From positions 124,001 through 188,000 of the forward strand of contig NZ_VIRS01000006.1 of the NCBI RefSeq assembly GCF_006912135.1: a stretch of DNA of 64,000 nucleotides, read 5' to 3'. Position 1 is the first letter of the stretch. Every line of letters begins with the position of its first letter. This document shows, in pieces, positions 47,556 through 53,091 of this stretch. This DNA comes from Cryptosporangium phraense. Lineage in GTDB: Bacteria; Actinomycetota; Actinomycetes; Mycobacteriales; Cryptosporangiaceae. Below the pieces are notes generated by a model that worked only from the letters and a program-made list of their open reading frames with translations, was not told the origin of the DNA and ran no database searches. The translations under genes and the position numbers were made by a program.

Positions 47556-47714
47556 CGTCGGCGGGGTACCAAAGTTGGCCGGTGTCCCGGCCGGACGGGC
47601 GGTGTGCCCGGAACGGCGGGGCAATCGGCACTGTCGCGCGGGTCAGCGGGCCCACCAGGGTGGAGAACAACCAAGTCGCCGGGGCTCGGTTCTTCCCCTG
47701 AAGGGACACGTCAG

Positions 47715-48719
47715 ATGCTCCCGCAGGTCGTCCGCAGTGAGTTCCTGCCACTGGTGGAGACCCAGCTAGCGTTCCAAGACACGTTGCTGAGCCGGCCCAA
47801 CGTCGTGGGGGTCGGCCTGGGCCACAAGTACAGCCGGGGCATCAACACCGGCGAGCGGGCGATCACGGTGCTCGTGCACCGGAAGGTCGATGCCCGCTAC
47901 CTCGCTCCGAAGGCGATCATTCCCCCGGAGCTCGACGGCGTCCCGACCGACGTGCAGGAGGTCGGGATGATCCGGGCCGGCGGCGGCCCCCAGCCCTGGG
48001 CCGACCGCGGTGCCGCCGCCGCCATGGGCGTCGGCCCGTTCCAGCTCGGCCAGCGCGTCCGCCCGGCGTTCGCCGGCGTCAGCGTCGGCCACTACCGCGG
48101 CAACGCGGGCACGTTCGGGGCCGGCTGCTTCGACGCGTTCCCCAAGCCGGGTGAGCCGGGCCGCTACTACATCCTGAGCACCAACTACGTCCTGGCCGAT
48201 ACGAACGGCGGCATCGCGGGCGATCCGATCCTGCAGCCGGCGCTCGTCGACGGCGGCCGCTACCCGGCCGACGTGATCGGCAAGCTCGTCCGGTACGTGC
48301 CCATCCAGTTCCACGACGGACCGTCCAAGCCGCTCAACTTCGTGGACGCGGCGATCGCCGAGGGCCTGCACGACACCGACCGGCGCGTCTACTGGGCCGG
48401 CGAGGTCAGCGCGCTCAACGCCGCGCCGAACATCAACGACACCGTCCAGAAGTGGGGACGCACCACGAACTTCACGACCGGGCACGTCCTGGCCGTCAAC
48501 GCCACCGTCGACGTGCACTACGACGGTGGCCGCATCGCCCGCTTCGGCCAGCAGATCATCACCACGAACATGTCGGCCGGTGGCGATTCCGGCAGCCTGG
48601 TGACCGACCCCGACGAAGGGGCGGTCGGGCTGCTGTTCGCCGGCTCGGTGCGGGTGAGTGTGCTGAACAACATCGTCGCCGTCCAATCGCTGCTGGGCGT
48701 CCGCGTCACCGAGGGCTAG
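47715..48719 (+). CDS. trypsin-fold protein lacking the catalytic His (putative pseudoprotease)
   Basis: 334 residues without a signal peptide. The N-terminal part (FLPLVETQLAFQDTLLSRPNVVGVGLGHKY ... ITVLVHRKV) is a small alpha/beta module common in this family. The trypsin-like domain has the catalytic Ser in SAGGDSGSLV (S292), Asp in NFVDAAIAE (D211) and the late AVGLLFAGS. The position where relatives read SNNHVLA reads STNYVLA here, so catalytic His appears replaced by Tyr158. The start ATG at 47715 has an AAGGGA site. Next to a kinase fused to a protease, it may be a regulatory or binding protein rather than an enzyme. Confidence 0.78.
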   Translation: MLPQVVRSEFLPLVETQLAFQDTLLSRPNVVGVGLGHKYSRGINTGERAITVLVHRKVDARYLAPKAIIPPELDGVPTDVQEVGMIRAGGGPQPWADRGAAAAMGVGPFQLGQRVRPAFAGVSVGHYRGNAGTFGAGCFDAFPKPGEPGRYYILSTNYVLADTNGGIAGDPILQPALVDGGRYPADVIGKLVRYVPIQFHDGPSKPLNFVDAAIAEGLHDTDRRVYWAGEVSALNAAPNINDTVQKWGRTTNFTTGHVLAVNATVDVHYDGGRIARFGQQIITTNMSAGGDSGSLVTDPDEGAVGLLFAGSVRVSVLNNIVAVQSLLGVRVTEG

Positions 48720-48800: not shown

Positions 48801-48892
48801 CTCGTGCCCGCGGAACGTTCCCCCGTGGCCCGGCGCTGCGGTACAACCAGCGCGACAGCATCCATTTCCCTCCACAGTGCAGAGGATTGACA

Positions 48893-49387
48893 GTGACCAC
48901 TGAGACCTCGACGCCGACGTCCACGGAGACCGTGTTCGTCATCGATGTCAACGACCGGTTCGCGCACCTGTTCACCAGCGTGCCCGACCTGCTCGGCACG
49001 CACGAGAAGGGCCACGTCGAGCCGCCGCGCGGGCTCGACTTCTTCGACCAGGACGGTCGTCGTCTGGCGCCGGTGTTCGACGAGTGCTGGCAGCTGGTCG
49101 GTCTGGTCGAGACCAACGAGGAGCCCGACCCGCAGGCGATCCAGGCCCGGCTGGCCGCGGTGTTCGCGTTCCTGGCCGAGTACACGTCGGGTCACCCGAC
49201 CGAGATCGCCGACGACTACGGGCTGAGCGTCGACGAGGCGCTCGGCGAATTACCGCAGCTCGCCGGCAAGTCCCTGTCCGACAGCATCGCGGCTCTCGGT
49301 GGCGTCACGCACTACCCGGCCGACGCCGGCACCGAGCAGAAGGACCCGGGCAACTGGTTCCACAACCTGATGCACAAGATCAGCTGA
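48893..49387 (+). CDS. hypothetical protein upstream of the kinase-protease fusion
   Basis: 164 residues, acidic and soluble, no signal peptide or membrane segment. The start GTG at 48893 follows AGAGGA at 48881-48886. A Thr/Ser-rich N-terminus precedes VFVIDVNDRFAHLFTSVPDLLG and LDFFDQDGRRLAPVFDECWQ, and the C-terminal half is helical (IQARLAAVFAFLAEYTSG ...). I do not recognise the family. It ends 15 bases before the fusion kinase, so it is probably co-transcribed. It could be a substrate or regulator of the protease domain; this is only inference. Confidence 0.65.
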   Translation: MTTETSTPTSTETVFVIDVNDRFAHLFTSVPDLLGTHEKGHVEPPRGLDFFDQDGRRLAPVFDECWQLVGLVETNEEPDPQAIQARLAAVFAFLAEYTSGHPTEIADDYGLSVDEALGELPQLAGKSLSDSIAALGGVTHYPADAGTEQKDPGNWFHNLMHKIS

Positions 49388-49402: not shown

Positions 49403-52402
49403 ATGCGCATTCCCGCCCTGTCCAGGCTTTCTCCCCGCAGCGTCGCGGGGTTGCTCCTCGTCGTCCTGGTCGTCGTCGCCGTGCTGCTCGGGCAGTTCGA
49501 CGGCGGTACCGACTCGAGCGCCGGCCCGGTGGGGATCAGCATCGCGATCGCCATCTCCTGCACGGCGCTGGGGGTGCTCATCCTCGTCGCCGTGCCGCGG
49601 CATCTGGTCGGCCGGCTGCTGCTGGCAGCCGGCGCCAGCGCCGCCGTCGGCACCGTCGCGGTCAGCTGGACGCGCTGGGAGCCCGTCGCCTGGCTGAGCC
49701 AGTGGACGTGGTGGCCGGCGTACGGACTGCTGTTCCTGGCATTGTTGTTCTTCCCCGACGGCCGATCAGCCGGCCGGGGCTCGCGCGTCCTCGCGGTGAC
49801 GCTGATCGCGTTGACTGCGCTCAGCTCGATCGTGCTGGCCGTGGCCGCCCTGGACGCACCCCGGACGCTGCTGAGCGCGGCCGACGTGAAGCTCGATCCG
49901 CAGACCAAACTGCTGGTGCGGATCTTCGCGGCCGGCGTCTTCCTGACCGTGGCCGCCGGCATCGGCGTCCTCGGCACGCTGTGGGCCCGCTGGCGCCGGG
50001 CCGACACCGACACCCGCCAGCAGCTCGCCTGTCTGCTGCCCGCGGTCGTCCTGCTGCTGCTCGGGTGGGGTCTGTCGTTCTTCAACCTCGACGGCGCCTA
50101 CATCCTGGCCGCGGTCGCGGTCCCGCTCGGGATGACCGTCGCGATCATGCGGTACGGGCTCTACAGCCTCGACCGCGTCCTCAACCGGACGCTGGTGTGG
50201 CTGGTCATGACCGCGCTGGTCGTGGTCGGGTTCGTCGCGATCGTCACCGTGCTCCGCGAGGTCGTCATGCGGAACACGTCGGCCGACTCGATCTCGCTGG
50301 TCACCACCGGCGTCATCGCGATCACCTACGCGCCGCTGCACCGGCGGGTGCAGCAGGGCGTCAACCATCTGCTCTACGGCGACCGGCACGACCCGTACAA
50401 GGTCATCACCGAGCTCGGCGACGTGCTGGGGCAGACCGCCGAGCCGAACGCGGTGCTCCCGCTGCTCACCGGCACGATCGCCAACTCGCTGCAGGTCCCG
50501 TACGTGGCGGTGGAGGCCGAGGAGCCGCACGGCGCCCGGCTGCTGGCCTGGTACGGCCGGGTCGGGTCGAACGTCCAGGCGTTCGACATGATCTCCCGCG
50601 GTGAGCACATCGGACGCCTGCTGGTGTCCCCACGAACCGACGGCGGGCACTTCTCGCCGCGCGAGACGCAGCTGCTGACCGACATCGCGCTGCACGCCGG
50701 GGTGGCCGTCGAGGCCGGTCGGCTCACCCGCGACCTACAGGAGTCGCGCGAGCGGCTGGTGCGGGCCCAGGAGGAGGAGCGTCGCCGGCTGCGTCGCGAC
50801 CTGCACGACGGGCTGGGGCCGAGCCTCACCGGGATGTCGATGCAGGTCCGGGCGGCCCGCAAGCTGTCCGGGCCCGGGCGGGTGCGTGACATCCTCGACG
50901 CGCTCGCCGGCGACCTGGCCGCCTGCACCGCGGAGGTGCGTCAGCTGGTCGACGAGCTACGTCCGCCCGCGCTCGACCGGGGGCTGGCCGTCGCGCTGCG
51001 CGACGAGTGCCGCCGGTTCGACAGCAACGCGCTGTCCGTGCAGCTCGATCTGCACGACGATCTCGGTCGGCTCCCGGCCGCGGTCGAGGTCGCGGCCTAC
51101 CGGGTCGTCGCCGAGGCGCTGAACAACGTCGCCCGCCACGCCGACGCGCGCAACTGCGTGGTGAGCGTCCGGCGCGGGCGTGATCTGACGATCGAGATCA
51201 CCGACGACGGCAAGGGCATCGCGGGTCCGGTGCGGGCCGGGGTCGGGCTGGCCTCGATGCGCGACCGGGCCGGCGAGCTCGGTGGCGAGTGCGAGATCCG
51301 GGCCGCGCAGCCCCGGGGCACCACGATCCGCGTGCACTTCCCGGCGGCGTCGCTGGTGCTGATGGAGTCGGCGATCCCGCTCCCGCCGACCGCGGCCGAC
51401 GCCCCGGCGCTGGCCTCGGTGGCGCCCCCGGCCGTCTCGGCCGCGCCGACTGCACCCGTGCGGCTCTGGCCCGGGGGAGTGGTGCCGTACGAGGTCGCCC
51501 CCGACGTCGGCCCGAACGGACGGGTCAGCGAAGCGATCGCCCACCTGGAGAGCAAGACGTCGATCCGGTTCGTCCCGCGGACCGACGAGCACGCCGACCA
51601 CGTCCGGTTCGTGCTGGCCGAAGACTACGCGTCGCAGGTCGGCCGGGTCGGTGGGGAGCAGCACATCGAGGTGCAGGCCGAGGGCGAGATGGGCCGGGTG
51701 CTGCACGAGATCGTGCACACGCTCGGGCGCTGGCACGAGCACTGCCGCACCGACCGCGACCAGTACGTCTCGATCCTGTGGGCGAACATCGCGCCGGAGT
51801 CGCGGCCGAACTTCCTCATCCAGGCCACCGGGCCGGAGGAGGGCCCGTACGACTACGAGTCGATCATGCACTACCCCCGGGTGGCGTTCTCGGTCAACGG
51901 CGAGCGGACCCTGGAGACCCTCCAGCCGGTGCCCGCCGGCCTGCCGGTCGGCCAGCGCCGCCAACTCTCCGACGGCGACTGCCGGGTGATCGAGCGTCTG
52001 TACGCCGACGCGTCGGCCGCCGTGGAGCCGGCTCCGGTCGGCGCGTCGCCTTCGGAAGACGAGGTGTCGGGTGCGTTGCGGCTGCCGTCGAGCGTCCCGG
52101 CCGCGACCGCGGCCGCCGTCCGGATCGCGGTCCGCGACACGACGACCACCGCCAACGCGATGCGTCAGGTCGGCGAGACCGTCCTGACCGACGTTCCGCT
52201 GGTCGCGGGCGGTCAGGTCCCGTTCCGGGTCCCGGTCGACGGCGTCGACCCAACCGCCGTCTACACGCTCGAGGCCCATGTGGACGTGACCGGGGACGGC
52301 GCGGTGGCGGCCGGCGATCTCCTCACCGCCCGGGCCTGCCCGGTGCTGACCAACGGGGCGCCTGTGGAGGCAGTCGCCGTGCCGATGACGAGCGTGGTGT
52401 GA
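49403..52402 (+). CDS. membrane histidine kinase fused to astacin-like metalloprotease and YscW-like domain
   Basis: 999 residues in one uninterrupted frame. Residues of about 10-310 contain roughly ten helices; residues of about 330-440 resemble a GAF-like sensor. HisKA_3 follows: EERRRLRRDLHDGLGPS with phosphorylatable H468. The HATPase has NNVARHA, TDDGKGIAG (D601) and a GTTIRVHF end near 650. After a Pro/Ala linker (about 655-690), a metalloprotease domain of the astacin pattern appears: HEIVHTLGRWHEH (H768, E769, H772, H778) and the Met-turn SIMHYP (M822, Y824). The last 110 residues resemble the YscW/YbaY beta-domain. Nothing in topology suggests export, so the protease should be cytoplasmic, which is odd for astacins. 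A NarL regulator follows. Confidence 0.87.
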   Translation: MRIPALSRLSPRSVAGLLLVVLVVVAVLLGQFDGGTDSSAGPVGISIAIAISCTALGVLILVAVPRHLVGRLLLAAGASAAVGTVAVSWTRWEPVAWLSQWTWWPAYGLLFLALLFFPDGRSAGRGSRVLAVTLIALTALSSIVLAVAALDAPRTLLSAADVKLDPQTKLLVRIFAAGVFLTVAAGIGVLGTLWARWRRADTDTRQQLACLLPAVVLLLLGWGLSFFNLDGAYILAAVAVPLGMTVAIMRYGLYSLDRVLNRTLVWLVMTALVVVGFVAIVTVLREVVMRNTSADSISLVTTGVIAITYAPLHRRVQQGVNHLLYGDRHDPYKVITELGDVLGQTAEPNAVLPLLTGTIANSLQVPYVAVEAEEPHGARLLAWYGRVGSNVQAFDMISRGEHIGRLLVSPRTDGGHFSPRETQLLTDIALHAGVAVEAGRLTRDLQESRERLVRAQEEERRRLRRDLHDGLGPSLTGMSMQVRAARKLSGPGRVRDILDALAGDLAACTAEVRQLVDELRPPALDRGLAVALRDECRRFDSNALSVQLDLHDDLGRLPAAVEVAAYRVVAEALNNVARHADARNCVVSVRRGRDLTIEITDDGKGIAGPVRAGVGLASMRDRAGELGGECEIRAAQPRGTTIRVHFPAASLVLMESAIPLPPTAADAPALASVAPPAVSAAPTAPVRLWPGGVVPYEVAPDVGPNGRVSEAIAHLESKTSIRFVPRTDEHADHVRFVLAEDYASQVGRVGGEQHIEVQAEGEMGRVLHEIVHTLGRWHEHCRTDRDQYVSILWANIAPESRPNFLIQATGPEEGPYDYESIMHYPRVAFSVNGERTLETLQPVPAGLPVGQRRQLSDGDCRVIERLYADASAAVEPAPVGASPSEDEVSGALRLPSSVPAATAAAVRIAVRDTTTTANAMRQVGETVLTDVPLVAGGQVPFRVPVDGVDPTAVYTLEAHVDVTGDGAVAAGDLLTARACPVLTNGAPVEAVAVPMTSVV

Positions 52403-52407
52403 TTCCG

Positions 52408-53091
52408 ATGAGCGCATGGGCGTTCCAGGGCGGAGGCACACCGGTGGAAGAGCCGAAGCGGGTCCTCATCGTCGACGATCACCCGGTCGTGCGGCGGGGC
52501 CTGAAGGTGATGCTCGAGGACGAACCGTGGGTCAGCGAGGTCGCCGAGGCGGCCAGCGTCGAAGAGGCCGTCCGGGAGGCGATCACCTGCCAGTCCGACG
52601 TGATCGCGATGGACGTCGTCCTGCCCGACGGCGACGGCGTGGACGCGACCCGGCGGATCCTCGAGGCCTGCCCGGACGCGGCCGTGCTGATGCTCACGAT
52701 GGCCGACGACGACGACATCGTGGCCAAGGCGCTGAATGCGGGTGCTCGCGGGTTCCTGCTCAAGGACACCGACCCCGACATGGTGATCGACGCGCTGCGC
52801 ACGGTGGCCAGCGGTGGCGTCGTACTCGGGCCCAGAGTCGGCCCGACCGTGCTGACCGCGTTACGCCGGGCCCCGGCCGTCCTGCCGCCGCCGTTCGACC
52901 AGCTGACCACCCGGGAGCTGGAGATCGTCAACCGGCTGGCGATGGGCGACACCAACGCGCAGATCGCCCGCCACCTCAACGTCAGCGAAAAGACGATTCG
53001 TAACCAGATGTCGGCAGTTTTCAACAAGCTCAACGTGAGCGACCGGGTGCAAGCTGCCCTACTTGCGAGGGATGCCGGGATTTTGCGGTAG
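52408..53091 (+). CDS. NarL/FixJ-family response regulator (partner of the fusion kinase)
   Basis: 227 residues from the ATG at 52408; a GTG at 52444 with GGAGG seven bases upstream is a well-supported alternative. The receiver domain has RVLIVDDHPVVRRG, phospho-acceptor D69 in AMDVVLPDGDG, LTMADDD and the Lys of FLLKDTD. The LuxR-type helix-turn-helix reads LTTRELEIVNRLAMGDTNAQIARHLNVSEKTIRNQMSAVFNKL. It starts five bases after the kinase stop, so the two form a two-component system regulating transcription. Targets unknown; the neighbouring genes are candidates. Confidence 0.93.
   Translation: MSAWAFQGGGTPVEEPKRVLIVDDHPVVRRGLKVMLEDEPWVSEVAEAASVEEAVREAITCQSDVIAMDVVLPDGDGVDATRRILEACPDAAVLMLTMADDDDIVAKALNAGARGFLLKDTDPDMVIDALRTVASGGVVLGPRVGPTVLTALRRAPAVLPPPFDQLTTRELEIVNRLAMGDTNAQIARHLNVSEKTIRNQMSAVFNKLNVSDRVQAALLARDAGILR

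Follow-up and report, generated by a model that had tools for sequence, protein, structure and literature searches.

A sensor histidine kinase joined in one frame to an astacin-type protease and a pilotin-fold domain in the genus Cryptosporangium

What would a two-component sensor kinase, a class of protein that acts through phosphotransfer, do with an attached zinc protease? The question is posed by a gene at positions 49403–52402 on the forward strand of a 64,000-nucleotide stretch of Cryptosporangium phraense DNA (contig NZ_VIRS01000006.1, positions 124,001 to 188,000; hereafter, the window), which an initial annotation made from the sequence had described as a histidine kinase fused to an astacin. 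Open reading frame calling and translation return one stop-free frame of 999 codons, encoding 999 amino acids, just where the kinase–astacin frame had been placed. The architecture had also been called unfamiliar, and so it appears: in the portions of the literature retrieved for astacin with histidine kinase, for kinase–peptidase and for bacterial astacin, no histidine kinase–astacin fusion is described, and Cryptosporangium combined with astacin returned no match. The kinase, its regulator, the protease and the fold of the domain behind the protease are each of a known kind; their union would be new as far as searched, and is known from one genus.

The protein opens with a membrane input region (residues 1–330; 49403–50392, on the forward strand like all features below), in which a hydropathy scan finds eight strong hydrophobic segments. 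Two weaker helix candidates picked out by eye, at about residues 105–121 and 297–312, bring the total to about ten, and the ten or so helices proposed at the outset were thus a fair estimate. The kinase core that follows comprises a HisKA_3 domain (residues 459–524; 50777–50974; Pfam E 1.7e-14) with an RDLHDG motif and the phospho-acceptor at His 468, and a HATPase_c domain (residues 562–649; 51086–51349; Pfam E 6.8e-12) with its N and G boxes; the window protein therefore has the H box, the N and G boxes and the ATPase domain by which a HisKA_3 kinase is recognised. Pfam finds no GAF domain at residues 331–440, where one would be a guess from position. A Pro/Ala-rich linker (51350–51460; 36 amino acids) leads to the astacin catalytic domain (residues 687–868; 51461–52006), which Pfam matches over residues 689–867 at E 1.4e-38 and 132.9 bits against a cut-off of 22.5; a chance motif was rejected as its source on the strength of that E-value. 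The zinc motif HEIVHTLGRWHEH (residues 768–780; 51704–51742) and the Met-turn SIMHY (residues 820–824; 51860–51874) make up the complete signature that had been read from the sequence. The remaining part (residues 884–999; 52052–52399) is a YscW-like domain with the fold of secretion pilotins. Five bases past the fusion stop, an ATG at 52408 begins a response regulator of 227 amino acids (52408–53091) with the receiver (Response_reg) and the GerE/LuxR-type DNA-binding domain (GerE, Pfam) of the NarL type, which agrees with the regulator initially placed there.

An in-frame fusion of identical architecture occurs in all four genomes of the genus examined (G000–G003), one of which is a single 9.2-Mb contig. 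The astacin-bearing open frames run to 1004, 1171, 1177 and 1098 codons and the fusion proteins to 999, 1153, 1140 and 1090 amino acids, with syntenic flanks across the four assemblies. The initial annotation had looked to independent genomes for the same fusion: it recurs in all four genomes of the genus examined, is known only from this genus and probably goes back to a single event. Identity to the window protein is 91–92% in the kinase core, 74–81% in the membrane region, 76–80% in the astacin and 65–69% in the C-terminal domain, and reaches 96–97% for the regulator. The H, N and G boxes, the zinc motif (HE.VHTLGRWHEH, with the continuation HEHCRxDRD) and SIMHY are kept in all four fusions, the zinc ligands among them, as had been hoped for as support. 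The low-complexity linker varies widely in length, with 36 amino acids in the window protein versus 164, 172 and 119 in the three relatives. Its third-codon-position GC content is 0.94 in the window protein versus 0.73, 0.87 and 0.92 in the relatives, the lowest value belonging to the most repetitive Ala/Pro linker. Pairwise ratios of non-synonymous to synonymous substitution rates (dN/dS; Nei–Gojobori, own script) amount to 0.07–0.10 for the kinase core, 0.20–0.45 for the astacin and 0.23–0.40 for the C-terminal domain among the four fusions. By this measure the astacin and the C-terminal domain are under purifying selection.

The fold of the protease part closely matches that of known astacins. 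An AlphaFold model of the astacin with the C-terminal domain, built from 25 aligned sequences, has a mean predicted local distance difference test score (pLDDT) of 86, with the astacin blocks mostly at 91–97. VIA-align superposes the astacin on the BMP1 protease (PDB code: 3edh) with a Z-score of 24.7 over 189 residues at 2.2 Å, and Foldseek likewise matches the model to astacins. The domain thus combines the M12A fold, modelled for the window protein, and a Pfam score above the cut-off with HExxHxxGxxHE, ExxRxDRD and SIMHY in all four fusions. The family glutamate after the third zinc histidine is also kept in all four; in the sections of PMC9848320 drawn on here, the astacin N-terminus, once freed, binds this glutamate, and its freeing is the usual route of maturation.

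The features that accompany secretion are missing. Those sections of PMC9848320 describe astacins as extracellular enzymes with a signal peptide, a prodomain and two or three disulphides, and bacterial astacins as probably taken from animals. In all four fusions the positions of Cys42, Cys64 and Cys84 hold other residues, leaving neither the Cys42–Cys198 nor the Cys64–Cys84 disulphide, and the FxGD aspartate switch is absent from the 100 amino acids ahead of the domain; both stand-alone astacins of the genus, carried as a second copy by two of the four genomes (loci L050 and L051), have FEGD. Beyond the kinase core, the hydropathy scan finds no membrane segment, and hence no secretion signal peptide, in G000, G001 and G003; in G002 two Ala/Val/Pro stretches of the linker are flagged at 1.6 and were judged non-helical. 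The even number of membrane helices (eight strong, two by eye) and an N-terminus with Lys/Arg were also counted in favour of a cytosolic protease. The kinase core has to lie in the cytosol, and no later part of the protein crosses the membrane; we therefore infer a protease tethered to the membrane on its inner face, the side to which the initial annotation had assigned it. Loss of the three cysteines and of FxGD fits a cytosolic, non-zymogen form. The accompanying statement that astacins are normally secreted stands for animals but does not carry over to the actinobacterial astacins examined: in a simple hydropathy scan none of 11 full-length stand-alone actinobacterial astacins, two of them the genus paralogues, has a 19-residue stretch above 1.7 before the domain. 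With no signal-peptide-like stretch in any of the 11, leaderless astacins seem to be the usual, ordinary form in the actinobacterial group.

The C-terminal domain, initially read as a YscW/YbaY-like beta-domain, is borne out by structure more clearly than by profile. On its own it scores 20.0 bits against Pfam YscW (PF09619; E 9e-4), just below the 22.6-bit cut-off; among four stand-alone relatives, three lie above that cut-off (24.2, 24.2 and 25.2 bits) and one below (18.9). In the AlphaFold model the domain is a beta-sandwich with the pilotin fold. Matching structures are 5wec (Foldseek E 2.9e-5; VIA-align Z-score 11.1, 108 of 112 residues at 2.8 Å) and 2yjl (Foldseek E 5e-3; VIA-align Z-score 11.0, 99 of 108 residues at 2.5 Å), whose PDB titles say secretion pilot proteins and which we take to be the pilotin AspS and the type III secretion (T3SS) pilot ExsB, respectively. 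The AspS/ExsB-type fold of this domain, as modelled, is a new observation. Pilotins are lipoproteins of Gram-negative secretion systems; unlike the secretin pilotins YscW, AspS and ExsB, whose fold it shares, the domain is the C-terminal part of a cytosolic kinase arm, and its internal position in the fusion leaves it no lipoprotein N-terminus.

Relatives of this domain occur as separate genes near other bacterial astacins, leaderless ones among them, and this too is a new observation. Among 26 astacin loci of at least 9 kb (shorter loci were dropped), three are fusions and 23 stand-alone, and a YscW-like gene is found in five of the 23, namely four of the eight actinobacterial loci and one of the 15 others. 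A profile made from the four fused C-termini matched two separate genes, in L016 (a Bradyrhizobiaceae metagenome-assembled genome) and G392, both in loci that had been fetched by their astacins. Two more, in G662 and G576, were first spotted by eye and then tested with Pfam. In G662 the astacin, an MvdD-like ATP-grasp gene and the YscW-like gene are co-directional and each start overlaps the end of the preceding gene (scripted gene calls); in G576 the YscW-like gene is convergent with the astacin. A genome search added G595, which is not among the eight alignment rows and has the order astacin, ATP-grasp-like, YscW-like on one strand, as in G662. The YscW-like domain is thus not peculiar to the fusion, since it recurs in the genomic neighbourhood of some bacterial astacins.

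Within the class sample, where 12 candidates were scored per genome, 7 of 389 genomes have a YscW-like match, including all four with a full-length astacin. Rows of the model came from three of these four genomes, which leaves G595 as the one independent hit, so this co-occurrence is a hint rather than an independent test. In G392, G576, G595 and G662 the match adjacent to the astacin is the sole one among the candidates scored, and G001–G003 have the fused copy only. The pairing also breaks down in places: G814 has its YscW-like match on another contig than the astacin, G512 has a strong YscW-like gene without an adjacent astacin, G515 and G686 show weak YscW-like matches, G308 has no YscW-like gene among the candidates scored in its genome, and no YscW-like match was found in the genomes of G119, G331 and G378, where an astacin is present. 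Judging from these sequences, protease and partner seem to have entered the fusion as a pair, although the pairing is not universal.

The surroundings of several stand-alone astacins were recorded as well. In L143 (5945–8492) and L144 (6183–8736) an astacin with C-terminal KE/KDP-rich repeats stands beside ATP-grasp and YscW-like genes; the ATP-grasp is MvdD-like by Pfam in L143 and identified by similarity in L144, and the set looks like a ribosomal-peptide (graspetide-like) arrangement. In L016 (4017–9427) the astacin lies between a phospholipase-D-like gene, recognised by eye, and a caspase-like gene (Peptidase_C14), with the YscW-like gene two genes on, and the locus looks like an effector-type cluster. 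In L142 (7655–10501) a Cys-less astacin directly precedes a trypsin-like protein that also matches alpha/beta-hydrolases weakly, another protease–protease neighbourhood.

Outside the genus the kinase is found on its own. Some Astacin match is present in 17 of 397 genomes sampled from the order, 30 of 394 from the class and 11 of 396 from the phylum, many of these matches being partial and weak (E 1e-3 to 1e-9). The 128 loci examined came from these samples and from one contig pattern scan, which finds close relatives only and may omit the nearest genomes. They hold 16 frames with both this kind of kinase core and an astacin, some of them the same gene in more than one locus, and all 16 belong to the four Cryptosporangium genomes; the kinase test on loci used one query at E 1e-3 and would miss other kinase types. 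In G004, the sole genome examined from another genus of the family, neither an astacin nor this kinase was found at the thresholds applied. Kinase residues 1–650 match at E 1e-60 or better in 79 of the 397 order-sample genomes, the genus included; outside it, the 12 best-matching genomes are all from a single family (f15).

Twelve regions with related kinases were fetched, 11 from f15 and one (L140) from another family, together with L014 from a further relative, Micromonospora sp. HM5-17. In 11 of 12 loci (L014 and L129–L139) an orthologue of the small protein encoded ahead of the kinase is found upstream (29–38% identity; missing in L139), and in 11 of the same 12 a relative of the regulator is found downstream (58–69% identity); in L134 the regulator lies 2.4 kb downstream and is truncated where the stretch ends, and in L132 the contig ends before it. 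L140 has kinase and regulator matches only. The initial annotation would have been contradicted by relatives with separate kinase and protease genes, and none appeared: no astacin gene was found in the 13 loci (L014 and L129–L140), L132 (8.3 kb, under the 9-kb size limit of the astacin count) being searched for the kinase frame only, and none of the f15 kinase frames examined contains an astacin. Since relatives in another family keep small protein, kinase and regulator without a protease, the protease is, on this comparison, a lineage-specific addition to a conserved signalling module, gained in one genus. Four of the 12 kinases from f15 have a free, Pro-rich C-terminal tail of 35–65 amino acids, which would be a plausible landing place for an added domain.

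Because the fusion is known from one genus only, it is probably one event and not several independent ones. In an IQ-TREE analysis of 29 astacin domains the four fusions stand apart with support 100 on a long branch. An origin from the stand-alone paralogue of the genus was rejected, the fusions not lying beside the paralogues in the tree, although their deeper placement is weakly supported.

The module has a third gene. The small protein of 166 amino acids (48887–49387), for which no Pfam or NCBIfam family was found, is encoded by a gene that ends 15 bases ahead of the kinase start and has orthologues upstream of the kinase in the three other genomes of the genus (69–73% identity). Its AlphaFold model (mean pLDDT 79) found no matching fold, the best PDB match having an E-value of 0.55. 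Invariant His residues and a C-terminal GNxxHNxxH-like motif are seen in most aligned rows. It is possibly a regulator of the kinase. Further upstream, at 47604–48719, lies a gene conserved in the genus for a protein with an NAL1_N domain and a GDSG serine-protease-like motif, for which tblastn found no match in L014 or L129–L140. It has GGDSG, and STNY stands in the four genus copies at the usual position of the trypsin-fold catalytic His, a position assigned here by motif and not by structure; the protein may be a dead or altered protease. Elsewhere, G002 encodes a second copy of the membrane-sensing half of the kinase only (C10, 295835–296791; residues 12–338, 63% identical, in a 453-codon frame).

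Each part of the system has known counterparts from which it also departs. The kinase core and regulator match NCBIfam families of NarL/HisKA_3 two-component systems (MctS, UhpB, NarX, LiaS, MadS) and share with them the separate regulator gene directly downstream, but all scores are below the equivalog cut-offs, the best being MctS with 112 of 700 bits. To our knowledge none of these systems carries a protease. The M12A astacins (crayfish astacin, BMP1, meprins and the bacterial flavastacin and myroilysin) agree with the fused domain in the catalytic domain itself, its zinc motif, family glutamate and Met-turn, and the fold, but are extracellular with signal peptide and prodomain (PMC9848320, same sections), whereas the fused domain has neither and follows a cytosolic kinase. 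The best NCBIfam match of the protease part is the LegP-type astacin (NF045530) with 175.2 bits over 182 amino acids; this is below the 300-bit cut-off, and the window protein is a kinase fusion.

To the question posed at the start we would answer, tentatively and at somewhat under an even chance, that the tethered cytosolic protease is a second output of a membrane sensor kinase. A signal read by the membrane region would lead to His–Asp transfer to the NarL-type regulator and thereby to a gene output, while the protease would provide a second, post-translational output by cleaving a cytosolic or membrane-proximal substrate. Latency would not come from an FxGD prosegment, since FxGD is missing in the fusions. 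More probably it would come from the blocked N-terminus, because a freed astacin N-terminus binds the family glutamate (PMC9848320, as above) and this glutamate is kept, from an inhibitor or substrate-adaptor role of the YscW-like domain within the same protein, or from both; a cut in the loose linker would then free and activate the protease–partner unit. Protealysin and emfourin belong to another protease family and another inhibitor family than the parts of the fusion, and for an inhibitory YscW-like domain they would offer an analogy in working, with no homology claimed. There, as set out in the part of PMC9505478 relied on here, an intracellular bacterial zinc protease is inhibited by a small partner from its operon; unlike the fusion, that pair has no kinase, and the likeness is one of resemblance, not membership. 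A wider proposal, quite possible but on the doubtful side, is that bacterial astacins without a leader work in the cytosol as a protease system of their own, in which a pilotin-fold protein is the dedicated partner, as inhibitor or adaptor, and whose genes sometimes lie among many protease or effector genes, and that in this genus the whole unit was built onto a two-component sensor whose activation state would control the tethered protease beside the transcriptional output.

Several observations weigh against this answer. The two-domain model has a predicted template modelling score (pTM) of 0.65 and a low-confidence joint at model residues 194–199, so the two domains are not fixed relative to each other and the YscW-like domain is not predicted to dock over the active site. 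No YscW-like gene was found in four of the eight actinobacterial stand-alone loci (L050 and L051 with the genus paralogues, L142 from G308 and L146 from G814) or in 14 of the 15 others. Loss of the cysteines and of FxGD is not specific to the fusion: the stand-alone astacin domain of G308 contains no Cys, and the stand-alone astacins of G119, G331 and G378 have neither Cys nor FxGD. The astacin evolves faster than the kinase core (the dN/dS ranges given above), which makes relaxed constraint on it possible. Finally, the kinase module occurs without the protease in another family, and the protease is therefore not needed for signalling.

Astacins prefer Asp after the cut. It is conceivable, if somewhat unlikely, that the protease cuts its own kinase, whether in the linker, in another part or in the dimer partner, and that this self-cleavage sets kinase output or protease release. 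The linker would suit such a role, being Pro/Ala-rich and of very variable length between well-conserved domains, and every linker contains Ala/Val/Ser/Thr/Pro–Asp steps (1, 2, 5 and 9 in the four); release of the N-terminus is moreover the usual astacin maturation (PMC9848320, as above). However, no cleavage site is conserved in the linker, and Asp steps are expected from Ala/Asp low-complexity sequence. An improbable reading is that the protease part, whether passenger or binding domain, has hardly any catalytic role, if any, and was added neutrally to a kinase that already worked. Restriction to one genus in the loci examined, the faster evolution of the astacin and the free Pro-rich tails of f15 kinases, where an addition would be tolerated, speak for it, but the four fusions keep every catalytic and zinc residue as well as the family glutamate and Met-turn, dN/dS is below 0.5 in every pair, and protease and partner domain are both retained in all four.

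It is very improbable that translation from an internal start yields the protease–partner half as a protein of its own that acts alone. An ATG or GTG does occur near the kinase end in every species, and G001 has five GTG codons just before the astacin, after purine-rich stretches; a simple pattern search, however, finds no Shine–Dalgarno-like stretch at the candidate starts between kinase and astacin in G000, G002 and G003, and separate translation would not require the linkers of 119–172 amino acids in three species to be in frame, as they are. An assembly or sequencing error joining two genes is practically refuted and was rejected, because the in-frame fusion with its syntenic flanks is shared by four assemblies, one of them a single contig, and the frameshift that the initial annotation had thought to look for near 51350–51500 is absent, that stretch being open in all four genomes.

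Should the conserved zinc protease attached to this kinase work as proposed, it would give a bacterial sensor a direct proteolytic output, and a single protein might then control genes as well as cleave other proteins. This cuts against the picture of astacins as extracellular zymogens that bacteria acquired from animals, as drawn in the sections of PMC9848320 used here: leaderless astacins, some with a partner domain of their own, would have become attached to a signalling arm inside the cell. The astacin–pilotin-fold pairing, inside the fusion and beside some stand-alone astacins, offers a concrete and testable hypothesis that the pilotin-fold partner may act as an inhibitor or adaptor of these proteases.

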